The notes below the pieces were generated by a model. The model had not been told where the DNA came from. It did no database searches and was given only the letters and a program-made list of their open reading frames with translations. A stretch of 64,000 nucleotides of DNA from Acidobacteriaceae bacterium. GTDB lineage: Bacteria > Acidobacteriota > Terriglobia > Terriglobales > Acidobacteriaceae. The stretch lies in the NCBI GenBank assembly GCA_030041515.1, contig JASHNS010000081.1, positions 124,001 through 188,000 on the forward strand. The letters are read 5' to 3'. The position numbers and the translations under genes were made by a program. Shown here one piece after another: positions 10,460 to 58,417 of this stretch (within the stretch, counting starts at the first letter, position 1; each line of letters begins with the position of its first letter).

Positions 10460-13400
10460 ATGTGGCTGATTCATGGCGCGCTGCGCCGTCCGTTTACCGT
10501 CCTCGTCGCCGTCATTGCCGTGGCGCTCTGCTCCATCCTTGCCATCGCGCGCATGCCCCGCGATATCTTCCCCAGTCTCGATCTGCCTGAGATCTACGTG
10601 GCCCAGCCTTACGGAGGCATGAGCCCTGCGCAGATGGAAGGCTATCTCACCTACTACTACGAATCGAATTTCCTCTACATCTCCGGCCTCCAGAGCGTCG
10701 AGTCCAAATCCGTCGAAAATTTCGCCCTCATCAAGCTCTCCTTCGAGCCTGGCACGGACATGAACCAGGCGCTCTCCCAGACTGTCTCCTACATCGAGCG
10801 CGCCCACGCTTACATGCCGCCCGGCACCGTCCCGCCCTTTGTCCTGCGTTTCGACGCCGGCAGCGTCCCCGTCGGCTACGTTGTCTTCACCAGCAAAACC
10901 CGCAGCGTCGATGAGCTCCAGGATCTCGCCCTGAACCGCGTGCGCCCCCTCTTCGCTACCTTGCCAGGGGTCTCTTCCCCCGCCACTTTCGGTGGCAGCT
11001 CGCGCACCATCGTGGTCAATGTCGACCGCGACAAACTGAACAGCTACCGGATGTCCACGGCGGAAGTCGTCAAGGCCCTCCTGGATGGCAATGTGATCGC
11101 GCCGGCCGGCGATGTCCGCACCGGCGACCTCGATCGCATCACGCCCACCAACGGCGTGGTCTCGAATATCCAGGACCTCGCCAATCTTCCCGTACGCACC
11201 GGATCCGGACCCACCGTCTTCATGCGCGATATCGGCACCGTTGAAGACGGCAGCGACCTGACGCTCGGCTATGCGCTGGTCAACGGCCGCCGCACCGTCT
11301 ATCTGCCCGTCACCAAGCGCGCCGATGCCTCCACGCTCGCGGTCGTCCACGCCGTCAAGTCCAGCATGGCCCGTTTCGAAAACGTGCTCCCCCCGGATGT
11401 AAAGGTCAGTTACGAATTCGACCAGTCGGGACGCGTCACCCGCGCTTTGATCGCTCTCGTGCTCGAGGGCGCGACCGGCGCCCTGCTCACCGGGCTCATG
11501 GTTTTCCTCTTTCTGCGGGAATGGCGCAGCGCCTTCATCGTCGTCACCACCATCCCGTTCGCCCTCGTCGCCGCCGTGGTCGGCCTCTGGCTCGCCGGAC
11601 AAACCATCAACATCATGACCCTCAGCGGTCTCGCCCTCGCTGTCGGCATGCTGGTCGATGAGGCCATGGTGGAAATCGAGAACATCCATCGCAATCTGCA
11701 GCTCACCGATAACATTCCCCGAGCTGTCCTCGACGGCACCCGTCAGACCCTGATCCCGCGCCTCCTGGCCATGCTCTCCATCGTGGCCGTCTTCGTTCCG
11801 TCGTTCCTCATGGTCGGCGTCACCCGCGCGCTCTTCGTCCCCCTGTCCATGGCCGTCGGCTTCGCCATGATCGCCTCCTATCTCCTCTCCAGCACTTTCG
11901 TACCTGTGGTGTACATCTGGCTGAACCGGCGTATGCATCGCAGGGCGGACGAGAGCGAGGGCCGCACCCGCTTCGATCACTTCCGTGACCGCTATGGGCG
12001 GTTCATCGAAAGGCTTCTTGCCGCCCGCAAACTGGTGATCATCGCTTATTTCGCGGTCGCCGCGGCCATCATTCTTTTGCTCGGCCCGCAGCTGGGACGA
12101 GAAATCTTCCCGCACATTCCGCAGAATCAGTTCCAGCTGCGTCTGCGTGCTCCCGCCGGAACCAGGATCGAGGTCACCGAACAGATGGCGCTCAAGGCCC
12201 TCGACGACATCAAAAAGCTCGCCGGTCCCGGCAACGTCGACCTCAGTATCGGCTATGTCGGCACCTATGCCCCCAGCTATCCCGTCAACCTGATTTATCT
12301 CTGGACCAGCGGCCCTCAGGATGCAGTGCTGAATGTGCAGCTCCGCCAGGGGGCCAACATCTCCGTCAGTCAATTCGAGGAGCGTCTCCGCACGATCCTG
12401 CCCCGCGACCTGCCCACGACCGAGCTGACCTTCGGATCTGCCGACATTGTCGACCAGATCATGGATCTTGGGTCCCCCACCCCGATCGAAGTTGATATCC
12501 AGGGATTCGACCTCGCCGCCGACCACGCCTTCGCCCGGCAGATCGAGGCGCAAATGGCCAAAATCCCCCATCTGCGGGACCTGCATTACGGTCAGCCGCT
12601 CCAGTATCCCAGCCTCAATGTGGACATTGATCGCGAGCGCGCCGCCCAGCTCGGCCTGACCGTCGATCAGGTCACGCGCTCCGTTGAGACCGCCACCTGG
12701 TCCAGCCGCTTCGTCTCCCGCAACTTCTGGCAGGATCCTGCCACCGGTATCGGTTATCAGGTTCAGGTCGAAGTCCCGCAGAAGCAGATGGCCTCCCTCG
12801 ATGATCTGGCCTCCATTCCGCTCATGAGCGGCGGCGCCTCCAACCATCCCGATGTTGGCGACGTGGCCAATCTCAGCTACGGCCAGGTGGTTGGCGAATT
12901 CGATCGCTACGACATGCAGCGCGTCATTACGCTCACCGCCAATGTCCAGGGCGAAGATATGGGCCGCGCCGCTCGCCAGGTCGAAGCGGCCATCCGCCGT
13001 ACCGGCCCACCGCCCCACGGCGTCGAAGTCCACGTCCGCGGCCAGATCGTTCCCATGGAGCAGACCTTTCACGATCTGACCCTGGGCCTGATCTTCTCCG
13101 TGGTCGCGATCTTCCTTCTCCTCGCCGCAAACTTCCAGTCCATCCGCCTCGCGCTCATCTCCGTCTCCGCCGCTCCTGCGGTCATCTGCGGCGTTATCCT
13201 CGCGCTCCTGATCAGTGGGACCACCCTCAACCTCCAGTCCTTCATGGGGTCCATCATGGCGCTCGGCGTCTCGGTCGCCAACTCCATCCTGCTCGTCACC
13301 TTCGCGGAACACCATCGGCGCCACAGCCAGGCATCCTCTTCTGAGGCGGCTGTCTTCGGCGGAAGGACGCGCCTGCGGCCCATCCTCATGACCAGCATTG

Positions 13401-25950: not shown

Positions 25951-27075
25951 ATGCGTCGAACCATCGTTCACATCGGAAAATTCTATCCCCCCCACCCCGG
26001 GGGGATAGAAACTCATGTGCAGACTCTGGTCCGTGGGTTGAGCGGTTCGAGCAACGTTCAGGTGCTTGCTGCCGGAAATGCGATTCACGCAAAGATCGAG
26101 CGGCTGGACGGAGCGACCATCATGCGGCTCCCCACATGGGGCGTGGTCGCATCCCTGCCGTTAACTCCCACCCTCCCTCTTGAACTCAGGAAACTCAAGC
26201 CCTCGCTTTTGCATGTGCATGTGCCCAATCCGGCCGCAGCCTTCGCGGTCGCCGTCACCGGATATCGCGGGCCTCTGGTCGTCACGCATCATGCCGATAC
26301 CCTGGGACGAAAGCTCCTGAAGAAGCTTACCGCTCCTTATGTGAGAGAGATGATGCGGCGAGCCGACCGCATCATCGTCACGTCTCATCGCTATCTCGAG
26401 AGCTCCGAAGAGCTCGCGCCGTTTAAGTCGAAGTGCGCGGTCATCCCCCTCGGAATGAACTATCCGGAGCCGGTCGCGTCGTCCCTCGCGGACGCAATCC
26501 CGCCCAGTTGGGTACCTCCTCTGATTCTCTCTGTCGGCAGACTGGTGCCGTATAAGGGATACATTTGCCTCCTCCAGGCCATGCAGGCGGTCAACGCCAC
26601 TCTTCTGCTCATCGGGGCCGGCCCCCTCGAGCGCGATCTGAAATCAGCCGCGCAGAACCTTGGCGTATGCGGCAAAGTAAAATTTCTCGGCTGGATCGAC
26701 GATCTGCAGCCCTATTACCGCGCCAGCTCCCTCTTTGTTCTCCCATCCATCACGCGAGCCGAAGCCTTCGGCCTGGTTCAGCTGGAAGCCATGGCTGCCG
26801 GCCTTCCCGTCATCAACACCGATATTGATTCCGGCGTTCCCGAAGTGTCCCCGGACGGCATCACGGGGATTACCGTTCCTCCCGGCGATTCCACGGCGCT
26901 CGCTCAGGCCATCAACACGTTGCTCGAGACTCCGGGATTGTGCCAAAGAATGGGTGCCGCGGCCAGGGCTCGCGCCCGCTCCGAATTCAGCGCGGACCTC
27001 ATGATCCGCCGCACTCTGAACGTCTATGACGAAGTACTAGCTGGGCGCACGCTTCGGTCGTCGGCCGCGGATTAG
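25951..27075 (+). CDS. Glycosyltransferase family 4 (EPS locus)
   Basis: A 374-residue GT-B fold enzyme. The N-terminal loop FYPPHPGGIETHV and the C-terminal donor-binding region with LPSITRAEAFGLVQLEAMA (the E-x7-E motif of GT4) are clear, and ILSVGRLVPYKGY matches the start of the Glycos_transf_1 domain. It should transfer a nucleotide-activated sugar, retaining stereochemistry, to a growing lipid-linked repeat unit at the inner face of the membrane. It begins 24 bases after the export gene, so they are probably co-transcribed. A perfect 12-bp inverted repeat falls inside codons 11-20. Confidence 0.9.
   Translation: MRRTIVHIGKFYPPHPGGIETHVQTLVRGLSGSSNVQVLAAGNAIHAKIERLDGATIMRLPTWGVVASLPLTPTLPLELRKLKPSLLHVHVPNPAAAFAVAVTGYRGPLVVTHHADTLGRKLLKKLTAPYVREMMRRADRIIVTSHRYLESSEELAPFKSKCAVIPLGMNYPEPVASSLADAIPPSWVPPLILSVGRLVPYKGYICLLQAMQAVNATLLLIGAGPLERDLKSAAQNLGVCGKVKFLGWIDDLQPYYRASSLFVLPSITRAEAFGLVQLEAMAAGLPVINTDIDSGVPEVSPDGITGITVPPGDSTALAQAINTLLETPGLCQRMGAAARARARSEFSADLMIRRTLNVYDEVLAGRTLRSSAAD
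25981..26010. repeat. Perfect 12-bp inverted repeat inside the start of the GT4 gene
   Basis: TTCTATCCCCCC (25981-25992) and GGGGGGATAGAA (25999-26010) are exact reverse complements around a 6-base loop. They encode the conserved FYPPHPGGIE segment of the glycosyltransferase. A stable hairpin this close to the start could slow translation. Confidence 0.7.
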
Positions 27076-43191: not shown

Positions 43192-44460
43192 ATGGCGCGG
43201 AGTTCCTGGGGTTGCCGATCGAAACCTGCGCAGAGGATCCATCGCCGAACAGCGGCATGCCTCGCGGCAGGACTCGCCTGCGCGCTCACAGCGAGCGCCC
43301 AAATCGCGCTAGGACCGTCCTCGCAGTTGGCGCAGTTGCTCGCGCAGAACCATGTGAAGCAGGCAATCCTCAAGCCGCCCCAGGGAATCCTCAGATATCC
43401 CTACCTCGTTCCCAGTGGCCCCTACTACGAGCTCTTTGACTGGGACAGCTATTTCATGGGCGTGGCCCTCAGCTACGACCATCAGGGCGAACCGCTCGCC
43501 AGCTCCGTCGAAGATTTTCTGAGCTTCGTCAACGAGAATGCCGACGACCCCGGCTACACGCCGCGAGAGATCGCGCCCACCACCTTCTGGGCGCTCCCCG
43601 AGATGTGCAAGCCCTTCCTCGCCCAGGCCGCCTACCGCGCCTCGCTCACTATGGGCAGCGTCGAGTGGCTCCGCCCCTGGTACAGGCGTCTCGCTGACAC
43701 GATCCATTTCTGGGAGGACACCCGCCAACAGCCCAACGGCCTCTTCGTCTGGTTCAACGGCGTCGAAAGCGGCGTCGACAACAACCCCGCCGTCAGCGAT
43801 CGCCCCGCTCTCTCCACTGAAGGCGTCGATCTCCAGTGCTACCTCTACCGCGAGTACGAAGCGATGGCCATCCTCGCTGCGAAACTCGGATACGCGCGCG
43901 ATGCCGCGGAATATCGCGACAAGGCCGCCGCCCTCAGGAGCCGGATCCAGACGCTCATGTGGTCACCCAGCGCAGGCATGTACCTCAACATCGACGCCCG
44001 CACCGGAAAAAAGATCGACATCCTCACCTGGACCGACTTCGTCCCCCTCTGGGCCGGCGTCGCAACCCCCGCGCAAGCCCACCAGATGATCGACGCGCAT
44101 CTCCTCAACCCAAAGGAATTCTGGACTCCTTACGGCATCCGCGGCCTCGCCCCCAATCAGCCCCTCTACGATCCGGTCCACGGCTACTGGCGCGGCCCTG
44201 TCTGGATCCTCACCAATTACCTGCTCATGCACGGCCTCATGAACTACGGCTATCCGAAGCAGGCCATCCAGCTCGCCCGTAACACGCAGAACCTCCTCAT
44301 CCGCGACCTCAAAGCCACCGGCGGCATGAACGAGTGCTACAACCCCGACACCGGCAAGCCCGAAGGCGACGACCATTTCGTCAGTTGGGATCTCCTCGCC
44401 GAGCACATGCTCGAAGAAGCCCAGACCAACCACGACCCCACCGCGCTCAAAATGTTTTGA
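43192..44460 (+). CDS. GH63/GH37-like alpha-glucosidase or trehalase-like protein, secreted
   Basis: A 422-residue protein with a Sec signal (RRTAACLAAGLACALTASAQ region). The (alpha/alpha)6-barrel signatures of the GH63/GH37/MGH group are visible: LFDWDSYFMGVALSY, WFNGVESGVDNNP, STEGVDLQCYLYREYEAMA, YGIRGLAPNQPLYDP and GYWRGPVWILTNYLL. Members hydrolyse terminal alpha-glucose from glycoprotein glycans, trehalose or mannosylglycerate; the exact substrate is not clear. It could work with the glycan-trimming enzymes at the left end of the window, but lies far from them. Start at the ATG after GGGGGGCGG. Confidence 0.82.
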   Translation: MARSSWGCRSKPAQRIHRRTAACLAAGLACALTASAQIALGPSSQLAQLLAQNHVKQAILKPPQGILRYPYLVPSGPYYELFDWDSYFMGVALSYDHQGEPLASSVEDFLSFVNENADDPGYTPREIAPTTFWALPEMCKPFLAQAAYRASLTMGSVEWLRPWYRRLADTIHFWEDTRQQPNGLFVWFNGVESGVDNNPAVSDRPALSTEGVDLQCYLYREYEAMAILAAKLGYARDAAEYRDKAAALRSRIQTLMWSPSAGMYLNIDARTGKKIDILTWTDFVPLWAGVATPAQAHQMIDAHLLNPKEFWTPYGIRGLAPNQPLYDPVHGYWRGPVWILTNYLLMHGLMNYGYPKQAIQLARNTQNLLIRDLKATGGMNECYNPDTGKPEGDDHFVSWDLLAEHMLEEAQTNHDPTALKMF

Positions 44461-45184
44461 GCGGAAACCTCACTCCGCTCTCCCGCCCCCGAATCTCGCC
44501 CATCGAATAAGTTCTGTCATCCTGATCAGATCTGCCATCCTGAGCGTAAGCTCCGTCATCCTGAGCGTAAGACCTGTCATCCTGAGCGGAGTTCGGCGCG
44601 CTCGGCGCGACGAACGCAGTCGAAGGACCTGCATTTCCGGCTGGGTGCCCCACCCTTGTCGCGCGCAACTCGCGCGGCAGAGTGGGGAGCCACCAAACTT
44701 CGTATCAGGGAAGACCCCCCATAGCCCACAGAAAAAGCACCCCGAGACAGGGGCTTCGTATCAGGGCACGACTTCACAGGCTGCGGAAATAGTCGATTCT
44801 TTGAAGGGGCCCGGCTCAGCCGGGCCGAAAAATCGGCAAAATCAATTCGGCTTCAGCCGCTGAGGGACGTTTTTTCCTGCACGACGGGATCTTTCTGCAA
44901 GCTCTTCAGCCGTGCTGAAAACGCCCCAGAAGAGAACGGGCATCACGCCCTGCGCCCCCGTATCAGGGCCCTGCGCAGCAGGGCTGCGGTAGAAGCACCG
45001 GGCTTCAGCCCGGTGATCAGATCTCCTCGAAGAGCGGCTTGAGCCGCGGAGCACGCAACCTTTTATCAAGCCACGACCCCACCCCTTCGCAAAAGCATTG
45101 CAAGGCCGACGCCCTGTATCACGCCACGACTTCAGTCGTGCCGAAAAGGCCCCAGAACAGAGCGGGCTTCAGCCCCTGTGAAGC
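44461..45184. repeat. Repeat-rich intergenic region (tcatcctgagcg tract and hairpin modules)
   Basis: No gene is supported. At 44514-44634 there are four close copies of a gtcatcctgagcg-type unit ending in GCAGTCGAAGGACCTGCAT, the same end as in the 172-bp array at 49.2 kb. At 44643-44686 there is a CCCCAC...GTGGGG dyad with inner CGCGCG arms. From 44755 to 45180 there is a mosaic of short hairpins, e.g. GGCCCGGCTCAGCCGGGCC, CGGCTTCAGCCG and CACGACTTCAGTCGTG (45125-45140) followed by GGGCTTCAGCCCC (45164-45176). Confidence 0.8.
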
Positions 45185-45574
45185 TCACCCTTGCAGCGCG
45201 GCGCCCTCTCCCGCCTTCGGCTCGCACAGCGCAATCTGGTTCCCGAACGGATCCAGCAGGTTCAGCCGAGGCATGCCCCAAAAGCTCTCCGTGATTCCCG
45301 GCCGCCAGTATCGGTAATTCTTCGCCGACAACTCCGCGTGGAGTTCCTGCACGCCCTCGAAATCCACCTGAACCCGCGCCCCCGGCGACCCGTCGCCATA
45401 ATGCTCCGAAAGGTGCACCACCAGCCCATTCCGCGAAACCTGCATATAGAGCGGCGCTGTTGGGGCAAAGCGATGCTCCCAGTCCAGGTGGCAGCCCAGA
45501 TAGTCGAGATAAAACTCCCGCGCCTTTTCCTCCGAAAAGATCCGCAGAATCGGAATCACCCGCAGCGTCCGCAT
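45185..45574 (-). CDS. VOC-superfamily (glyoxalase/bleomycin-resistance-like) protein
   Basis: A 129-residue protein with one betaalphabetabetabeta pair: VIPILRIFSEEKAREFYLDYLG, then VHLSEHYGDGSPGARVQVDF and RLNLLDPFGNQIALCEP. These resemble the bleomycin-binding and glyoxalase-like group, with a Glu near the C-terminus as a possible metal ligand. Function unknown; such proteins may bind drugs or act on small metabolites. The ATG lies two bases after the dapD stop codon, so the two genes are translated from one transcript. Confidence 0.82.
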   Translation of the reverse strand: MRTLRVIPILRIFSEEKAREFYLDYLGCHLDWEHRFAPTAPLYMQVSRNGLVVHLSEHYGDGSPGARVQVDFEGVQELHAELSAKNYRYWRPGITESFWGMPRLNLLDPFGNQIALCEPKAGEGAALQG

Positions 45575-45576
45575 AC

Positions 45577-46413
45577 TCACCGCAGCAGCTCTTCCAGCGC
45601 CGCGCTCAGCTCCGTCTTCTCGTCCCGATACTTCACGATCACCGGCGTATACACGCTCACACCCCACTCTGCCCCTTTACCCTTCGTCACCGCGCGCGCC
45701 CCCGGCACCACCACCGCGCCCTCCGGAATCACCAGCGGCCGTTCGCCCTCCGCCCGCAGCACCTCGCCCCGCACCACGTCGTACACCGGCGTGCCCCGCG
45801 TCAGAATCGTCCCCGCCGCCAGCACCGCCCGCCGCCGCACCACTGTTCCTTCATACACGCCGCAGTTCCCGCCCACCAGCACATCGTCTTCCAGAATCAC
45901 CGGGCTTGCGTTTACCGGCTCCAGCACGCCGCCCACCTGCGCTGCTGCGCTCAGGTGCACGCGCCTGCCCACCTGCGCGCAGCTCCCCACCAGCGCGTGC
46001 GAGTCGATCATCGTCCCCTCGTCCACATACGCCCCCACATTCACCCAGCTCGGCGGCATCATCACCACGCCGCGCGCCACGTACGCGCCCGACCGCACCG
46101 CCGAGCCCCCCGGCACCACGCGCACTCCATGGTCCGCCACAAATCGCCGCGGAGGAAACGTGTCCTTATCCACAAACGACAGCTCCACGCCGCTCGCTTC
46201 CATCTGTCCCAGCCGAAACCCCAGCAGGATCCCCTGCTTCACCCACGCATTCACCCGCCACCCAATGGGCGCAGATGCATCCGGCTCCGCAGCCCGCAGG
46301 ACCCCGGCTTCCAGCGCCGCCCGCAGCTCCACAAACGCCTGCATCGCCCCGGAGTCGCCCACCGCCTCCGCCCCCGCCGCAAAATACCGCTCAATGTCCG
46401 TTTGCAAACTCAT
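45577..46413 (-). CDS. dapD: Tetrahydrodipicolinate N-succinyltransferase
   Basis: The enzyme succinylates tetrahydrodipicolinate in the succinylase branch of lysine and diaminopimelate synthesis. The 278-residue product has a helical N-terminal domain and a left-handed beta-helix built from hexapeptide repeats, with FVADHGVRVVPGGSAVRSGA, MMPSWVNVGAYVDEGTMIDS-like text (actual MMPPSWVNVGAYVDEGTMI), GSCAQVGRRVHLSAAAQVGG and IVIEDDVLVGGNCGVYEG-like text (actual VILEDDVLVGGNCGVYEG). ATG 46413 matches the usual N-terminus; the longer frame to 46545 runs into a repeat element. First gene of a two-gene unit with the VOC protein. Confidence 0.93.
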   Translation of the reverse strand: MSLQTDIERYFAAGAEAVGDSGAMQAFVELRAALEAGVLRAAEPDASAPIGWRVNAWVKQGILLGFRLGQMEASGVELSFVDKDTFPPRRFVADHGVRVVPGGSAVRSGAYVARGVVMMPPSWVNVGAYVDEGTMIDSHALVGSCAQVGRRVHLSAAAQVGGVLEPVNASPVILEDDVLVGGNCGVYEGTVVRRRAVLAAGTILTRGTPVYDVVRGEVLRAEGERPLVIPEGAVVVPGARAVTKGKGAEWGVSVYTPVIVKYRDEKTELSAALEELLR

Positions 46414-46499
46414 CGCTGAATCCGAATCGTGGGTCGATCCGCGCTTGCCCTGAAGACTTTTCCCCTTCACAGCTTGCGGAAGAATCCTCTTGTAGAGGG

Positions 46500-46572
46500 G
46501 CTTTGTATCAGGGCATGACTTCAGTCGTGCCGAAAAGTTGCCCAATGGGAACCGGGCTTGAGCCCCTGAGGA
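46500..46572. repeat. Two-hairpin repeat element between dapD and thiL
   Basis: GCATGACTTCAGTCGTGC (one mismatch in the stem), then CGAAAAG and a 20-base spacer, then GGGCTTGAGCCCC. It follows TTTGTATCAGG, which also precedes the copies at 49.12 and 50.17 kb. It fills most of the gap between the divergent dapD and thiL genes. Confidence 0.75.
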
Positions 46573-46643
46573 ATCATCGACCCGGCCTCGGCCTCAACCG
46601 AAGTGTATCAACCTCTCAGTCCGCAAAATGTATCCTCAAATCC

Positions 46644-47804
46644 GTGCCTCGCCCCACCCCATCCCGAGCCCTCCCCTCCGAGCTCGCCCTCATCCGCGAC
46701 CTCCGCCGCCAGGCCGCGTCCATCTCCTCTCGCTCCCTCATCGCCGGCATCGGCGACGACTGCGCTCTCCTTCGCCCCAAACCCAACCACGACCTCTGCG
46801 TCACCACCGACTTCTCCCTCGAAGGCGTTCACTTCCGCCGCGACTGGCACCCTCCCCAATCCGCAGGACACCGCTGCCTCGCCCGCGGCCTCAGCGACCT
46901 CGCCGCCATGGGTGCCGACCCCGTTGCGGTCTTCCTCTCCCTCGCGCTTCCCGCGCGCCTGCCGCGCACCTGGCTCGACGGCTTCCTCCAGGGCTTCCTC
47001 GCCCTCGCCCGCCAACACCGCGTCCCTCTCGCCGGCGGCGACACCGCCCAATCTCCCGGCCGGATCACCGCCGACATTGTCGCCATCGGCCAACTCCCCC
47101 GCAACACCGCGCGCCTCCGCTCCACCGCCCGCCCCGGCGATCTCCTCTATGTCACCGGCGCTCTCGGCGGATCCGCTGCCGAACTCCTCGCGCTCTCCAC
47201 GACGCCCGCAGACAAGACAGCTTCAGTTTTCAGGGGGCACGGCTCCGCAACTCTCGCCAGTGCTTCTGCTTTGAAGGGGCACGGCTCCCCAGTTCTCGCC
47301 AGTGCTTCTGCTTTGAAGGGGCACGGCTTCAGCCGTGCCATCAATGCCTCAAAGAAGAAAGGGGCTTTAGCCCCTGAGGCAAACCATCCCCATCTCTACC
47401 CCGAACCTCGCCTCGCCGTCGGCCGCCGTCTCCGCCCGCTCGTCCACGCCATGATCGACATCAGCGATGGCCTCTCCACCGACCTCGCCCATCTCTGTGA
47501 AGAATCCGGCGTCGCCGCAGACATCGAAGTAGCCGCGCTCCCCATCCACCCTCTCGCACTCCAGCTCGGTTCAAAGCGCCGCGCGCGCTCGGCCCTTCAC
47601 CTCGCTCTCCACGGCGGCGAAGACTACGAATTGCTCTTCACCGCCCCTCCCTCGGCCAAAATTCCGCGCTCCATCGCCGGCGTCCCCATCCATCGCATCG
47701 GCGCCATCCGCAGACCTCGCCCCCATGGCCCCCGCATCCTGCTGAAAACAAAAGGCGCCCCGCACACCCCACTCACGCCCGCCGGCTGGCAGCATTTCCG
47801 CTGA
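46644..47804 (+). CDS. thiL: Thiamine-monophosphate kinase with an in-frame repeat insertion
   Basis: ThiL phosphorylates thiamine monophosphate to the diphosphate cofactor. The product, about 386 residues from a GTG at 46644, has all expected motifs: IAGIGDDCALL, CVTTDFSLEGVHF, LAGGDTAQSPGR, MIDISDGLSTDLAHL and LHGGEDYELLFT. ThiL is normally about 310-345 residues. Here residues about 192-248 do not belong to the family: they consist of GHGSATLASASALK, GHGSPVLASASALK and a partial third copy, then a hairpin-encoded segment. The insert lies between the N- and C-terminal domains where a loop would tolerate it. No good ribosome site was found; the start is a best guess. Confidence 0.85.
   Translation: MPRPTPSRALPSELALIRDLRRQAASISSRSLIAGIGDDCALLRPKPNHDLCVTTDFSLEGVHFRRDWHPPQSAGHRCLARGLSDLAAMGADPVAVFLSLALPARLPRTWLDGFLQGFLALARQHRVPLAGGDTAQSPGRITADIVAIGQLPRNTARLRSTARPGDLLYVTGALGGSAAELLALSTTPADKTASVFRGHGSATLASASALKGHGSPVLASASALKGHGFSRAINASKKKGALAPEANHPHLYPEPRLAVGRRLRPLVHAMIDISDGLSTDLAHLCEESGVAADIEVAALPIHPLALQLGSKRRARSALHLALHGGEDYELLFTAPPSAKIPRSIAGVPIHRIGAIRRPRPHGPRILLKTKGAPHTPLTPAGWQHFR
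47231..47379. repeat. In-frame 42-bp tandem repeat plus two-hairpin element inside thiL
   Basis: GGGCACGGCT begins at 47235, 47277 and 47319, a period of 42 bp (14 codons). The third copy runs into GCACGGCTTCAGCCGTGC (47321-47338), and GGGGCTTTAGCCCC follows at about 47361-47374. The latter pair is the same two-hairpin element found in nearby intergenic gaps, so the repeat family has entered a coding gene without breaking the frame. Confidence 0.85.
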
Positions 47805-47952
47805 GAATTTCTCCCCCCGCGCGGGCGACCAACTTCGTGCTGCTCCGCATCCAATCGAACGCTATAACAGCTCCTGTACATCCATCTCCTGGACATCAGG
47901 AACTGCTGTAAGGTTCTGCCGCCTGCACGGTCGGCGCCGGGGAGTCCATCGC

Positions 47953-48426
47953 ATGCCGCAGTTCCTTCCCACAACTGGCGATCCGGATTCGCCTCCGGAG
48001 GCCCAGACCTACGAGCACAGGCTCTTCAAGCGTGCCGGGGCGGGGCGCGGAATTCTGATCGTGGATGATGAGCCCGCGATCACCGAGACTCTCTCCGCCG
48101 TCTTCACCCACAGCGGCTACACCGTTCGCACCGCGCTCTCGGCCGAAGAAGCCATCGAAACCGTCGCCGTCTGGGAGCCCGACCTCGCCATCCTCGATGT
48201 CATGCTCCCGCGCATGAACGGACTCGATCTCGCCGTCGTTCTCCGCGACAACCACCCCCGCTGCCGCCTCGTCCTCTTCTCGGGCAACGTCAACACTCCC
48301 GCCCTCGCTGAAGAAGCCGCGAAGAAAGGCAATTTCTTCGAGATCCTCTCCAAACCTGTCCATCCCCTCTTCATGCTCGACTACGTCGCCAGCCTCTTCT
48401 CTGAACCCACCCCCGGCATCGCTTGA
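47953..48426 (+). CDS. Single-domain response regulator (CheY-like)
   Basis: A 157-residue protein: about 32 poorly conserved residues, then one receiver domain with GILIVDDEPAIT (acidic pair Asp38, Asp39), the phosphoacceptor Asp82 in LAILDVMLPRMNGLDL, Ser110 at the switch position in LVLFSGN and Lys134 in ILSKPVHP. No output domain follows. It probably interacts with a histidine kinase encoded elsewhere. The 148-bp gap before it holds an imperfect dyad and repeat of CTCCTGKACATC at about 47871-47896. Confidence 0.9.
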   Translation: MPQFLPTTGDPDSPPEAQTYEHRLFKRAGAGRGILIVDDEPAITETLSAVFTHSGYTVRTALSAEEAIETVAVWEPDLAILDVMLPRMNGLDLAVVLRDNHPRCRLVLFSGNVNTPALAEEAAKKGNFFEILSKPVHPLFMLDYVASLFSEPTPGIA

Positions 48427-48512
48427 GTCAGCCGGAGGCCACTCTGATCGAGTGTTGTCAGCGTCAGGGTGGGCCCCTACCACGGACCCCAGATCAACGG
48501 CTGCTGTTCTTT

Positions 48513-48932
48513 CGCAGGCAGGCCTGTAAGCCGGATTCTGTCGAGGACGGCCATTCCTCTTGGCGCCGCATTGCTGCGGTCGCTCCAGCGACCTACCCGA
48601 AACTTCCATCCGTTACCGGATGCCCCTCCGGGGTTGACGCGCCGGGCCGGCGCGTGCGGACATTGCTGCCCGTCTCGTTCCCTATTTGGTCTTGCTCCGT
48701 GTGGGGTTTACCATGCCTCCGTCGTTACCGCCGGAGCGGTGCGCTCTTACCGCACCTTTTCACCCTTACCCCAATCCCTTTCGAAACCAGGGCGGTATCT
48801 TCTCTGTGGCACTTGCCGTCCCTGAGCCTTTACGCTCAGGTCCCGGACGTTATCCGGCACACTGCCCTCTGGAGTCCGGACTTTCCTCCAGCGGAGTCGC
48901 CCCCGCCAGCGGCCGTCCAGCCTGCCTGCTCG
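48513..48932 (-). ncRNA. rnpB: RNase P RNA
   Basis: The catalytic RNA of RNase P, which trims tRNA 5' leaders. On the minus strand, after GAGCAGGCAGGCTGG come the conserved segments GAGGAAAGTCCGGACTCC, AGGGCAGTG, GGTAAGGGTGAAAAGG, GGTAAGAGCGCACC, GGTAAACCCCAC, GCAAGACCAAATAGGGA and, near the 3' end, GACAGAATCCGGCTTACAGG. This is the type A bacterial arrangement, about 420 nucleotides. A TATCAT on the minus strand at 48942-48937 would place transcription start close to 48931. Ends are approximate. Confidence 0.97.
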
Positions 48933-48976
48933 TCTGATGATACGCCGACGCGCTGCCTTCCCCGCGCCGGCGCCCC

Positions 48977-49111
48977 TCAACGTCCCGTCATTTTCTTGAG
49001 CGCTTCCGGATAGCGCTGCCCCTCCACCGGAATCTTCGCCGACCCCTCATCCATCTCGCCCAGATCGTCTGCGCCCCGGGCGCGCCTCCACGCCTCGCGA
49101 ACAATCCCCTG
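48977..49111 (-). pseudogene. C-terminal remnant of a gene, interrupted by repeat DNA
   Basis: The minus strand encodes VREAWRRARGADDLGEMDEG and then SAKIPVEGQRYPEALKKMTG-R before a TGA at 48979-48977. It has a protein-like composition and sensible codon use, unlike the flanking repeats, but no start codon with a ribosome site; upstream it runs straight into the two-hairpin repeat at 49120. It may be the end of a truncated gene or a very short gene starting at the inner ATG. I do not recognise the family. Confidence 0.35.
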
Positions 49112-49119
49112 AGGGAGAG

Positions 49120-49188
49120 GCCTTGTATCAGGGCACGACTTCAGTCGTGCCGAACGCGGTCCAATTACGGCGGGGCTTCAGCCCCTGA
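49120..49188. repeat. Two-hairpin repeat element left of the 172-bp array
   Basis: CTTGTATCAGG, then GCACGACTTCAGTCGTGC (49133-49150), CGAACGCGG and a spacer, then GGGGCTTCAGCCCC (49172-49185). Same order and spacing as the copies at 45.12 and 46.51 kb. Confidence 0.85.
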
Positions 49189-49233
49189 AAAAGACGCCAT
49201 CCCGCCAATCCCTCAACCCCAACCCCAAACAAA

Positions 49234-50063
49234 CCGTCATCCTGAGCGAAGTGGAACGCGCCATCAGCGCGGTCCACGCAGTCGAAGGACCTGCATGGCG
49301 GCGCTTTCCATTACTGCGGCCCCAGCCCACGCCGCAGCCGCGCGCGCCGGAGGGGCAACGTTGATGAGCCCAGCACTCCTGCCAATCCCGCAATCCCCAA
49401 ACAATCCGTCATCCTGAGCGGAGTGGAACGCGCCATGGGCGCGGTCCACGCAGTCGAAGGACCTGCATGGCGGCGCTTTCCATCACCGCGGCCCCAGCCC
49501 ACGCCGCAGCCGCGCGCGCCGGAGGCGCAACGCAGGATAGCCCAGCACTCCTGCCAATCCCGCAACCCCCAAACAATCCGTCATCCTGAGCGGAGTGGAA
49601 CGCGCCATGGGCGCGGTCCACGCAGTCGAAGGACCTGCATCGCGGCGCTTTCCATCACCGCGGCCCCAGCCCACGCCCCAGCCGCGCGCGCCGGAGGCGC
49701 AACGCAGGATAGCCCAGCACTCCTGCCAATCCCGCAACCCCCAAACAATCCGTCATCCTGAGCGGAGTGGAACGCGCCATGGGCGCGGTCCACGCAGTCG
49801 AAGGACCTGCATGGCGGCGCTTTCCATCACCGCGGCCCCAGCCCACGCCGCAGCCGCGCGCGCCGGAGGCGCAACGCAGGATAGCCCAGCACTCCTGCCA
49901 ATCCCGCAACCCCAAACAATCCGTCATCCTGAGCGGAGTGGAACGCGCCATGGGCGCCGTCCACGCAGTCGAAGGACCTGCATCGCGGCGCTTTCCATCA
50001 TTGCGGCCCCAGCCCACGCCGCAGCCGCGCGCGCCGGAGGTGCAACGCAGGATAGCCCAGCAC
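49234..50063. repeat. Five-copy tandem array, 172-bp period
   Basis: Units start with CCGTCATCCTGAGCG at 49234, 49406, 49578, 49750 and 49921, giving spacings of 172, 172, 172 and 171 bp. Each contains GTGGAACGCGCCAT, GCAGTCGAAGGACCTGCAT, GGCGGCGCTTTCCATCA, CCGCGCGCGCCGGAGG and CCCAGCACTCCTGCC. The last four copies are almost identical; the first is more diverged. The fifth ends at 50063 where the sequence changes to a full CCCAGCACTTCAGTGCTGGG hairpin (50056-50075). Long open frames on both strands here are repeat artefacts. Confidence 0.95.
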
Positions 50064-50400
50064 TTCAGTGCTGGGAAAGCCGCGGAAAAACCCGAGCCCC
50101 GGAGGGGCGGCGCGCACACGCCATGCATCACGGCACGACCCCAAAGCCTGCCAAAACCCTCCGAGACAGGGGCCCCGTATCAGGGCACGACTTCACAGGC
50201 TGCGGAAAAACACATGGAGACAGGAGCTTTGTATCAGGGCACGAGTTGACTCGCGCCGAAACGGTCCCAAAATGAGTCCCGCTTTAGCCGCTGCGGTCTC
50301 CCTCCCGTCTTCATCCGGAGTTTTTCCGCAAGCTGTTCAGTCGTGCCACAAGCGATCCAGGAATGGCCGGGCTTCAGCCCCTGCGCCTTTCCCAACCACC
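50056..50400. repeat. Mosaic of hairpin repeats right of the array
   Basis: Begins with the perfect CCCAGCACTTCAGTGCTGGG at 50056-50075. Two degenerate copies of the GTATCAGGGCACGACTTCA type follow at about 50168 and 50233, each losing one hairpin arm, then CAGTCGTGCC near 50339 and GGGCTTCAGCCCC at about 50369-50381. No gene is supported. Confidence 0.75.
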
Positions 50401-50598
50401 TGCGATGGAAACCGCGCCACACCTTGCGTCCCTTGCGCCGCGCGTCCAAACCCTCGCAAAATCTGACCTGTTCCTACCCCCTATCCCCTGCATTTCTTGT
50501 CAACCCCCGCACCTCTTCACCAAAGTAACCACCGTTGATTCCAATGAAGATCTCCTCCAAAACCAATGAAAATATTTGGCAGTCTAATTCTTCTAACT

Positions 50599-50607
50599 TG
50601 GTATTCT
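50599..50607 (+). promoter_or_regulatory. Extended -10 promoter candidate
   Basis: TGGTATTCT matches an extended -10 (TGnTATnnT) within an unusually AT-rich 120-bp stretch (50500-50630). A TTGGCA lies at 50576 but the spacer of 20 is long. Transcription would begin near 50614, just before two terminators. Confidence 0.4.
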
Positions 50608-50629
50608 GAACTTAGATAGAAAGAAAGCA

Positions 50630-50656
50630 AAAAGCCCGCCCCGCGCGGGCTTTTTT
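50630..50656. terminator. Strong intrinsic terminator 1
   Basis: AAAAGCCCGC, a 5-base loop, GCGGGC and TTTTTT. Runs of A and T on both sides make it potentially bidirectional. No gene on the plus strand ends nearby. Confidence 0.9.
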
Positions 50657-50675
50657 CTTTCTCCTCATTCCTCGC

Positions 50676-50711
50676 CGCCGCCGGTGACCCATTCACCGGC
50701 GGCGCTTTTTT
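50676..50711 (+). terminator. Strong intrinsic terminator 2
   Basis: CGCCGCCGGTGA (50676-50687), loop CCCAT, TCACCGGCGGCG (50693-50704), then CTTTTTT. A perfect 12-bp stem only 20 bases after terminator 1. Confidence 0.9.
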
Positions 50712-50801
50712 CTGACTACCGACTACTGCCTGCTAACTACCGGCCGCTGCCATCTGGCGCCTATCCCGAAACCGTAACCCGTACCTCGTAAGGAGGCATT
50801 C

Positions 50802-51527
50802 ATGCCCAACGACCAACCTCTCCCGGAACCCATCCCGTATCCCATCGGCCGCCTCGACCCCGCCCACGCCAAACCCATCCCTTCTTCGCGCCCACGCTGC
50901 CGCGCCCTCACCGTCGACGGCCATCGCTGCAAAAACTATGTCGTCGGCGGACTCCATCTCTGCTTCTCCCACTACCGCTACCGCCGCCCCGCCTTCCCCG
51001 AGGCGCGCAACTTCTCCACCCCTCTCATCGAAGACCGCGCCACCCTCCAGCTCGTCTCCACCCAGGTCGTTCAGGGCATCCTCTCCAATCGCCTCGATCC
51101 GGTCCGCGCCCGCATCGCCATCGCCGCCCTGCGCGTCGCTGCCCTCACCATCCCCGGCCTCTACAAGCCCGTCGCCCCGCCCAAACAGGCTGTCACCGAA
51201 CCCTCCGCCCAAACCCCCGCAGAGACCCCTGAAGACACCGTCTGCCACCTCGGCCGCGATCACGAGGACTTCATCAGCGCCGACGGCGACCTCTCCGAGC
51301 CGCCCCTCAATCCCTCCTGCTCCGTCGCCGAGTCCGCCGACGCCGCCCGCCACCTCCTCAACACGCTTCAGCCCGTCAGCCATTGCAATCCCGAAGACGA
51401 GGACCCCGAAATCGTCGTTCCCCCCGACACCCACGACTGGCAAACCTGCCACTGCTTCACCTGCACTGACTTCCGCGATGATGTCCACCGGCGCATCGAG
51501 CGCGATCGCATCGCAGCGGAAGGGTAA
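50802..51527 (+). CDS. Cys/His-rich protein with a DUF5763-like zinc motif
   Basis: A 241-residue protein. Residues about 31-60 read PRCRALTVDGHRCKNYVVGG then LHLCFSHYRYRR, a C-x9-C-x9-C-x3-H pattern resembling small zinc modules (DUF5763-like) found on many proteins of Acidobacteria and actinobacteria. The rest is helical (LVSTQVVQGILSNRLDPVRA...) and then Pro/acid-rich; a second Cys/His cluster (DWQTCHCFTCTDF) lies near the end. Function unknown; DNA or RNA contact is possible. A strong GGAGG precedes the ATG. Two terminators lie between a promoter candidate and this gene, and a perfect hairpin spans its stop codon. Confidence 0.7.
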   Translation: MPNDQPLPEPIPYPIGRLDPAHAKPIPSSRPRCRALTVDGHRCKNYVVGGLHLCFSHYRYRRPAFPEARNFSTPLIEDRATLQLVSTQVVQGILSNRLDPVRARIAIAALRVAALTIPGLYKPVAPPKQAVTEPSAQTPAETPEDTVCHLGRDHEDFISADGDLSEPPLNPSCSVAESADAARHLLNTLQPVSHCNPEDEDPEIVVPPDTHDWQTCHCFTCTDFRDDVHRRIERDRIAAEG

Positions 51528-56976: not shown

Positions 56977-57426
56977 ATGGGTAAGATCAACTTTGGTCGC
57001 GTGCTTCTCGGCGGTATCGTTGCAGGAATCGTCATCGACGTTTTGTCATACGTCTCGGATGGAGTGATTCTGAAGTCACGGTGGGCAGCCGCGTACCAGG
57101 GCAGTTTTACGACCGGGCAGATCATGGGCTTCTGCATTTTGGGCCTCATCGCCGGCGTGATCACGATCTGGTTCTATGCTGCGTGCAAGCCACGGCTTGG
57201 GACTCGTTATAGAACCGCGTTGAATGTCGGGTTGGCGGTCTGGATCATCGGTTATGTGTTGCCCAACGCCGGCTATCTGTACATCAGCGGCCATCAGCAC
57301 AATCTCATGATTTACACGACGTTGGGGAATCTCGTGGAAGTCCTGGCCGGAACCTTCATCGGCGCCGCGTTCTGCAAGGAATCAGGCGTGCTCGAAGCCG
57401 CGGCTCCCAAACCGGCCGCAGTCTAG
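56977..57426 (+). CDS. Small four-helix membrane protein of unknown function
   Basis: A 149-residue protein with four likely membrane helices: VLLGGIVAGIVIDVLSYVSD, IMGFCILGLIAGVITIWFYA, ALNVGLAVWIIGYVLPNAGY and TLGNLVEVLAGTFIGAAFC. Short charged loops and a His-containing SGHQHN loop between helices 3 and 4. Similar small membrane proteins are frequent in Acidobacteria; no function is known. AAAGGAGGC lies eight bases before the ATG, a very strong site. Confidence 0.82.
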   Translation: MGKINFGRVLLGGIVAGIVIDVLSYVSDGVILKSRWAAAYQGSFTTGQIMGFCILGLIAGVITIWFYAACKPRLGTRYRTALNVGLAVWIIGYVLPNAGYLYISGHQHNLMIYTTLGNLVEVLAGTFIGAAFCKESGVLEAAAPKPAAV

Positions 57427-57589: not shown

Positions 57590-58417
57590 ATGCCCGAACT
57601 TCCTGAAGTCGAAACCATCGCCACGGGCGTGCATCGGCAGCTTCGTGGCGACACCATTCTCTCCGTTTGGTTCTCTCGCTATCGAGAGCCGTTCAAGACG
57701 CCACCCGACGAGATGGCCGCTGCCCTGTGCAACCGACGCATCAGGCAGGTTCGGCGCGTCGGCAAGCATATTGTTTTCGACCTTGAACCCACGCCCCAGG
57801 CATCTGCGAGCTTCCGCCCTCGAATCCAGTGGACCGTGCACCTGGGCATGTCAGGCCGACTACTGATCGCCACCCCCCGGTCGCCGGAAATGCGTCACAC
57901 CCATGCCGTGCTGCATCTGGGTTCCGGGCGTGAACTGCGGTTCGTTGATCCGCGTCGCTTTGGACGCCTGTCGCTCGAGCCAGGGGATTTTCAGGGTCCC
58001 GGAACCGAGCCGCTCGCGGTCTCCCTTGCCGATTTCACTGCCCTTTTTCGAGGACGGAAGCTCTCCATCAAAGCCGCATTGCTGAATCAGTCGCTGCTCC
58101 ACGGAGTGGGAAATATCTACGCGGACGAAAGCCTGTTTCGCGCGGGGATTCGCCCCACACGCCCTGCTGGTCGACTCACGCGCGCCGAACTTGGACGGCT
58201 CCGCACCGCCCTGCGTGCGGTCCTCCGCGCCGCCATCCGCGCCGGCGGATCCTCCGTGTCCGATTATGTGGATGCCGAAGGCAGCAAGGGCTTCTTCCAG
58301 GTGCAGCACCGCGTGTACGGCTGCAAAGGAAAACCATGCCGGGTCTGCGGAATGCCCATTCGCCGCATTGTCCTGGCAGGCCGGGGTACGCATTTCTGTC
58401 CCCGATGCCAGGAGTAA
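57590..58417 (+). CDS. mutM: Formamidopyrimidine-DNA glycosylase (Fpg/MutM)
   Basis: The enzyme removes 8-oxoguanine and ring-opened purines and nicks the DNA by beta,delta-elimination. The 275-residue product starts MPELPEVET, with the catalytic Pro and Glu right after the initiator Met. It contains VHLGMSGRL, the helix-two-turn-helix region LLNQSLLHGVGNIYADESLF and the C-terminal zinc finger VYGCKGKPCRVCG ... HFCPRCQE with four Cys in two CxxC pairs. The start is set at 57590; upstream frame has no similarity and would block the Pro nucleophile. Confidence 0.95.
   Translation: MPELPEVETIATGVHRQLRGDTILSVWFSRYREPFKTPPDEMAAALCNRRIRQVRRVGKHIVFDLEPTPQASASFRPRIQWTVHLGMSGRLLIATPRSPEMRHTHAVLHLGSGRELRFVDPRRFGRLSLEPGDFQGPGTEPLAVSLADFTALFRGRKLSIKAALLNQSLLHGVGNIYADESLFRAGIRPTRPAGRLTRAELGRLRTALRAVLRAAIRAGGSSVSDYVDAEGSKGFFQVQHRVYGCKGKPCRVCGMPIRRIVLAGRGTHFCPRCQE

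Follow-up and report, generated by a model that had tools for sequence, protein, structure and literature searches.

A REP-type repeat integrated in frame in thiL and other genes of an acidobacterial genus

Palindromic repeats that lie in frame within protein-coding genes have been described from several bacterial systems. The GTAG/CGTC REPs of Opitutus terrae, Rickettsia conorii, Thauera, Xanthomonas and others are short palindromes, mostly intergenic and in some cases in frame, and the catalogue of in-frame REPs published in 2013 covers several species and includes repair genes, tRNA synthetases, double insertions within one gene and recB genes of two Xanthomonas species struck at nearly the same position (main text of PMC3733652). 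The same text describes acidobacterial TIRYT/TIRtrons in Koribacter, A. capsulatum, T. saanensis and G. mallensis, in which RAYT-like genes are flanked by inverted repeats, some of them belonging to repeat families; its main body mentions no coding insertions of these TIRs. The Rickettsia palindromic elements, as presented in the available text of PMC10969869 and PMC3733652, are selfish DNA of about 150 bp that falls into ten families, has no transposase named there and occurs in frame in many unrelated genes. Finally, subclass 2.4 RAYT genes carry REP insertions that keep the frame and occupy a peripheral region, with the transposase gene itself being struck, generally between its HuH and Y motifs (available text of PMC6006769).

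The repeat analyzed here, found in frame in thiL, an essential gene for vitamin B1, of an Acidobacteriaceae bacterium, shares features with all of these systems as described and differs from the descriptions in several respects. In contrast to those of the GTAG/CGTC REPs, its hairpins are not accompanied by a GTAG or CGTC tag, its host is acidobacterial, one tlyA loop is occupied in seven of 12 congeners, and the insertions in thiL and tlyA show tandem and nested growth. It is likened to the TIRtrons by description rather than by comparison of TIR sequences, and it is likewise by description that we set it apart from the Rickettsia elements, being about 69 bp long, composed of two hairpins and found flanking RAYT genes. 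Unlike the situation in subclass 2.4, unrelated housekeeping genes are struck, and in both RAYT genes examined the element sits at the 3' end. The initial annotation had cited Rickettsia for protein-coding palindromic elements; the phenomenon is known beyond that genus (main text of PMC3733652). Because in-frame REPs and Rickettsia elements are already known, we view the present case as a new example in another phylum and not as a new category; what appears to be new is the phylum, the genes struck, the spread across a genus and the recurrence in the same loop with growth in place. Among the papers listed in the literature searches, none described an acidobacterial coding insertion of such repeats, and the terms thiL, RecG, alanyl and tlyA are absent from the main text of PMC3733652, the target ORFs of which are given in its supplements.

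The window, meaning the whole stretch of DNA analyzed, covers 64,000 nucleotides of contig JASHNS010000081.1. Its source genome (G000) was studied together with 11 others of the same genus (G000-G011 in all), among them a sister species, G008. Both are drafts, of 123 contigs for G000 and of 450 contigs with 88% completeness for G008; gene calls were made partly by eye, and this is the one genus studied closely. The features of the gene and its insert are as follows.

46644..47804, + strand: thiL, thiamine-phosphate kinase, 386 aa, GTG start, insert-bearing (TIGR01379, AIRS/AIRS_C domains, PDB ThiL matches)
47199..47384, + strand: expanded linker, residues 186-247 (alignments A2 and A3, linker lengths)
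47220..47328, + strand: 42-bp (14-codon) tandem repeat that includes the 5' end of the element (TRF; sequence)
47312..47379, + strand: intact type-B REP/TIR-type element of 68 bp, with its predicted translation lying within ALKGHGFSRAINASKKKGALAPEA (model R1 match of 74.1 bits, G000:C119:171312-171379; fold)
47320..47339, + strand: hairpin 1, GGCACGGCTTCAGCCGTGCC (blastn, fold, sequence)
47361..47374, + strand: hairpin 2, GGGGCTTTAGCCCC, followed by TGAGG (blastn, fold, sequence)

The gene encodes a thiamine-phosphate kinase: TIGR01379 matches with 267.3 bits against a cut-off of 184.15, in two stretches, Pfam finds AIRS and AIRS_C domains, the top PDB matches by sequence and by fold are ThiL, and no other ThiL match occurs in G000 at E<=0.001. 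Pfam begins AIRS_C inside the insert, which we took as alignment slippage. Between S185 and P253 the linker measures 67 aa. In nine of the 11 readable ThiLs of the genus (a count that includes G000 and leaves out G002, whose gene is interrupted by N's) it measures 20-23 aa, the exceptions being G000 itself and G008, where it reaches 128 aa at the same site. The net gain is thus about 47 residues and not the roughly 58 first estimated, and the expectation that orthologues would lack the insert holds for the nine and fails for G008. Distant orthologues with the same residues had been named as evidence that would speak against an insertion; the 45 other ThiLs of alignment A3, drawn from 80 loci fetched, have linkers of 14-39 aa. 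A search across 250 genomes of the family, scored for presence only, returned ThiL matches in 234. The protein, said at first to keep every catalytic motif, looks intact by alignment outside the linker: of the columns that do not vary among the remaining sequences, it retains 26 of 26 in A3 (45 remaining rows) and 114 of 115 in A2 (11 remaining rows). In the ThiL of a further genus (G074, L065) the linker at this site is 47 aa long and has the sequence TRVPHSSAGAPFTRGLIAVEWAGKK; as this differs from the present element it was not counted as a copy, and it is perhaps another repeat family.

Within the insert, the frame of thiL stays open and both remaining forward frames contain stops. Its DNA bears out the repeat structure initially described, as GGGCACGGC begins at 47235, 47277 and 47319 with a spacing of exactly 42 bp, or 14 codons, and TRF reports a period of 42 with 2.6 copies, 89% matches and a score of 169. 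Two partial units, not identical to one another, precede the start of a third, which runs into the complete two-hairpin element. Apart from the query's own locus, the matches listed for the insert DNA in G000 all start at query position 82 or later.

The same two-hairpin element was said to lie in nearby intergenic gaps, and the window indeed holds five further model matches, all on the + strand, with no coding frame found through any of them.

44800..44865, + strand: element copy, no coding frame through it found (model R1, 64.9 bits; blastn; scan)
45113..45181, + strand: element copy, no coding frame through it found (model R1, 66.4 bits; scan)
46502..46571, + strand: type-A copy just 5' of thiL, no coding frame through it found (model R1, 77.3 bits; scan)
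49122..49190, + strand: element copy, no coding frame through it found (model R1, 78.9 bits; scan)
50228..50296, + strand: element copy, no coding frame through it found (model R1, 62.1 bits; scan)

An Rfam search of window positions 44000-51000 returned two families, neither at an element copy: bacterial class A RNase P RNA at 48511-48928 on the - strand (RF00010, 272.3 bits) and an Acido-Lenti-1 RNA match at 50030-50075, also on the - strand (RF01687, 40.6 bits against a gathering threshold of 37). The latter overlaps the end of a 172-bp tandem repeat at 49223-50064 (4.9 copies, 96% matches).

Model R1 is a covariance model built from 21 aligned G000 copies, the consensus of which reads approximately TTTG(TATCA or AA)GGGCACG(A/G)CTTCAG(T/C)CGTGCC, a variable spacer of about 20 nt and then GGGGCTTTAGCCCCTGAGG. 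A literature search with the two hairpin strings returned no match. The element is abundant, with at least 140 model matches in G000 (best 150 of 2287 candidates scored), at least 144 in G008 (150 candidates scored) and from at least 22 to at least 119 in each of the other ten genomes of the genus (150 candidates scored per genome). With 50 candidates scored per genome, at least one copy at E<=1e-6 was found in at least 91 of 100 genomes of the family, representing at least 75 of 79 genera. A simple string rule divides the 140 G000 copies into 111 of type A, 20 of type B and nine others, and the 141 usable G008 copies into 67, 64 and ten, respectively. In G000 the element is often readable, and more so in sense: its sense frames are open in 230 of 420 cases and its antisense frames in 93 of 420. 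G008 lacks the sense bias, with 137 and 127 of 423, respectively. Some copies form dense head-to-tail arrays, several per approximately 1 kb, as in L170 (G000:C109:80826-81692), L148 (C78:13023-13949) and L172 (C111:12365-13056). Contigs with at least two separate blocks carry them in one orientation in 14 of 15 cases in G008 and six of 14 in G000, a tally in which gene orientation is not controlled; a replication-strand bias of copy orientation would fit single-strand transposition.

What moves the element is suggested by its neighbors. Two of the six PF01797 loci in G000 lie between inverted copies: C84:26431-26646 is bracketed by type-B copies at 26213-26279 (+) and 26734-26800 (-), and C111:11982-12215 by type-A copies at 11841-11909 (+) and 12365-12427 (-). 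At a third, C15:56651-56932, two + strand copies (57312-57380 and 57969-58037) lie on the same side, and the remaining three (C6, C17 and C90) have none within 30 kb among the matches listed. The C84 protein matches the NCBIfam entry NF047646, REP_Tyr_transpos, with 106.1 bits (cut-off 80). It contains PDHFH and YIHLNP, and the C111 protein PEHVH and YIAQNP, motifs whose presumed roles we counted toward RAYT identity. The 3' ends of both RAYT genes examined enter the flanking element (about 1717-2240 on the - strand of L172 and 1566-2150 on the + strand of L149); the predicted C-terminus of the C111 protein, AQGLKPSSNGALCGTTKVMP, and the stop codon after it are encoded by the element read antisense, and the C84 frame likewise continues through its element. 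Identity, copy number and RAYT flanking are thus directly supported: this is a RAYT-flanking REP/TIR-type repeat, short, palindromic and present in at least 140 copies in G000. Typical RAYT-associated REPs carry a GT[AG]G foot (available text of PMC6006769). The canonical 5' GT[AG]G is absent from the hairpin foot here, where the 21 aligned copies read TTTGTATCAGGGCACG or TTTGAAGGGGCACG and similar, and for this reason we do not class the element with the canonical GTAG REPs. Its affinity may be with TIRYT, the acidobacterial transposases flanked by TIRs (main text of PMC3733652).

The search for other coding insertions that the initial annotation proposed was productive. Copies were scanned with a dicodon model trained on 125 ORFs and their frames were read by eye, a procedure that reports open frames and leaves frame-breaking insertions uncounted. 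Three of eight candidate rows were accepted in G000 and six of ten in G008; the C84 RAYT gene surfaced in the first scan only. Nine rows (C90, C96, C100 and C101 twice in G000; C13, C136, C193 and C270 in G008) were judged by eye to be upstream of starts or spurious frames, and purK of G000 and purF of G010, both named by eye, were not counted as the element lies upstream of the likely start. The in-frame copies are those of thiL, recG and alaS in G000 (three of the 140 listed copies) and, in G008, those of thiL, with three copies spread over two sites, of recG, of tlyA, of murF, where the copy is antisense, and of one more gene, on C297 and TolB-like by eye (seven of the 144 listed). So small a share in open coding frames would be expected if hits in genes are mostly harmful.

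Orthologues were located in the 12 genomes by six-frame search regardless of frame. The RecG insert falls between residues 590 and 593 of its best PDB homologue, 1gm5, and the AlaRS insert between residues 272 and 275 of 3hxu, with two residues at that place in each structure. RecG linkers measure 115, 110 and 99 aa in G000, G008 and G009, where the element is present (antisense in G009), and 74-84 aa in the nine genomes without it. AlaRS was read in nine genomes and has element peptides in G000 and G005; in G007 its linker is long with no recognizable element. Element peptides occur in the TlyA of seven of 12 genomes, namely G003, G004 (in tandem), G006, G008, G009, G010 (two copies) and G011, where the loop measures 72-153 aa. 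The loop is short in G000, G001, G002, G005 and G007, the last read partly, and measures 35-39 aa in four genomes without the element. The TIGR00478 match to the TlyA proteins of G008 and G010 is split in two stretches, and the basis for the murF insertion of G008 is likewise a profile match in two stretches only. All three recG and all seven tlyA genes bearing the element keep one open frame across it. Seventeen of the 19 accepted coding copies are in sense and two are antisense (RecG of G009 and MurF of G008). Fourteen of the 16 sense copies written out, a set that omits these two and one thiL copy of G008, show the pattern GH-x-x-x-R/H-A followed by an ending of the form xxxAPx, for instance GALAPE; the exceptions are RecG of G000, which uses another 5' frame, and the shortened copy ThiL_G008c. 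In-frame integration in unrelated genes, with orthologues that lack the element, is therefore observed directly for thiL, recG, alaS and tlyA, and in this broad sense the repeat is a protein-coding palindromic element.

The histories of these insertions seem to differ. The ThiL tree makes G000 and G008 sisters with a local support of 0.93, with G007, which lacks the insert, adjoining them. The RecG tree and a concatenated three-gene tree give G007 with G008 supports of no more than 0.05 and 0.26, the latter grouping running against the ThiL tree, so the order of events that we infer for thiL rests on a weakly resolved tree. The ThiLs of G000 and G008 share the ASV...GHG and GALAPE peptides at the same point, which suggests a single ancestral type-B insertion that would have been followed by tandem amplification in G000 and by type-A loading in G008. 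The recG copies point to three separate events, since those of G000 and G008 differ in subtype and frame and that of G009 lies antisense. In the five type-B tlyA copies, four or five residues separate APEG/APAG from the downstream strand by eye; one old insertion with several losses would fit, and repeated insertion is possible.

Comparison of these five copies also indicates what is being conserved. Over ten non-independent pairs, identity at codon positions 1, 2 and 3 is 0.90, 0.88 and 0.93 in the hairpins, 0.90, 0.91 and 0.66 in the flanks and 0.64, 0.59 and 0.40 in the seven-codon spacer. The absence of codon periodicity implies that the hairpins are held or renewed as DNA, a signature compatible with recurrent recent insertion, with conversion between copies or with selection on structure. 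Since the embedded hairpins are conserved like a DNA structure and not like codons, a function of the peptide finds no support in them; the lower third-position identity in the spacer is at most a hint of peptide selection. Twelve of 16 coding copies form hairpin 1 with a stem of 8 bp, and the mean predicted fold energy of these 16 is -29.5 kcal/mol compared with -23.6 kcal/mol for 131 other G000 copies, sets that differ somewhat in length and genome, so that the comparison is only indicative of coding copies folding at least as well as the others. The structural check proposed at the outset gave a qualified answer, with the insert modeled at low confidence on a confident core. AlphaFold2 (46 sequences) returned a mean pLDDT of 87.7 for the window ThiL, most core blocks scoring 91-99, and values of 64, 42, 30, 42, 53 and 70 for the ten-residue blocks of positions 191-250, where short helices (e.g. 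228-239) are drawn with low confidence. The insert is probably a disordered excursion between the two ThiL domains.

We consider it very probable that the insert in thiL represents a mobile repeat of REP type that is translated and grew in place, and that the same process acted in other genes. A draft of 123 contigs with many similar element copies does invite the suspicion that a repeat was misplaced in thiL by assembly or sequencing error. Such an artefact is nevertheless extremely unlikely, given that an insert of larger size occupies this site in the separate G008 assembly, that the tandem units differ, that one frame is open while two forward frames are stopped and that the tandem part has no second source among the 47 matches listed for the insert DNA against G000 (40 of 59 candidates scored). 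Mobile elements also commonly strike genes that are being lost, and thiL of G008 has three model matches, so that the insertion might be tolerated in a decaying or silenced gene. Decay is very unlikely, however, in a sole ThiL gene that has no stop or frameshift and retains the conserved columns described above, and recG, alaS and tlyA behave alike. The strong hairpins in the mRNA could instead point to an insert removed before or during translation, in an intron-like or intein-like manner or by ribosome bypassing, with the open frame being incidental; the coding scan, having picked open frames, provides no test of this idea. We find it highly improbable because the element-bearing recG and tlyA orthologues, located irrespective of frame, all keep the open frame that removal would not require, and Pfam reported no domains other than AIRS in ThiL.

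Retention of the insert for a selected function of its peptide or hairpins, such as a flexible arm, mRNA structure or regulation, is unlikely, if less so. The occupancy of tlyA in seven of 12 species, the spacing of four or five residues, by eye, in its type-B copies, the prevalence of the 8-bp stem and the high third-position identity of the hairpins relative to their flanks would all be accommodated by it. Recent repeated insertion of a uniform mobile element yields the same signature, however, and the spacers vary freely, while the element is absent from five of 12 tlyA, nine of 12 recG and nine of 11 readable thiL genes.

According to the preferred reading, that of a translated mobile repeat, an element of about 69 bp would have entered the linker that joins the two domains of ThiL, probably in an ancestor shared by G000 and G008, and would have survived because it kept the frame, is poor in stops and met a linker that tolerates changes in length. 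It would be translated directly into a presumably neutral peptide, and would have grown, in G000 through tandem amplification of 42-bp units at its 5' end and in G008 through the addition of element copies, with the same process placing copies in loops of recG, alaS, tlyA, murF and others. The element may well be mobilized by the RAYT, probably on single-stranded DNA as for IS200/IS605. A broader idea, which we put forward as possible but doubtful, is that RAYT-linked repeats are a standing source of protein insertions in this genus: loops such as those of tlyA, recG, alaS and thiL would be reoccupied or inherited, copies would grow in place, the coding hairpin would be held by selection or conversion at the DNA level, genes would serve as stable refuges and proteins would gain disordered arms. 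In any event, the finding adds the Acidobacteria, where a likely transposase is present for study, to the hosts of in-frame selfish DNA, for which Rickettsia is the best-known case, and the occurrence of orthologues with and without the element in one genus offers a comparative test of whether translated repeats are tolerated or used.
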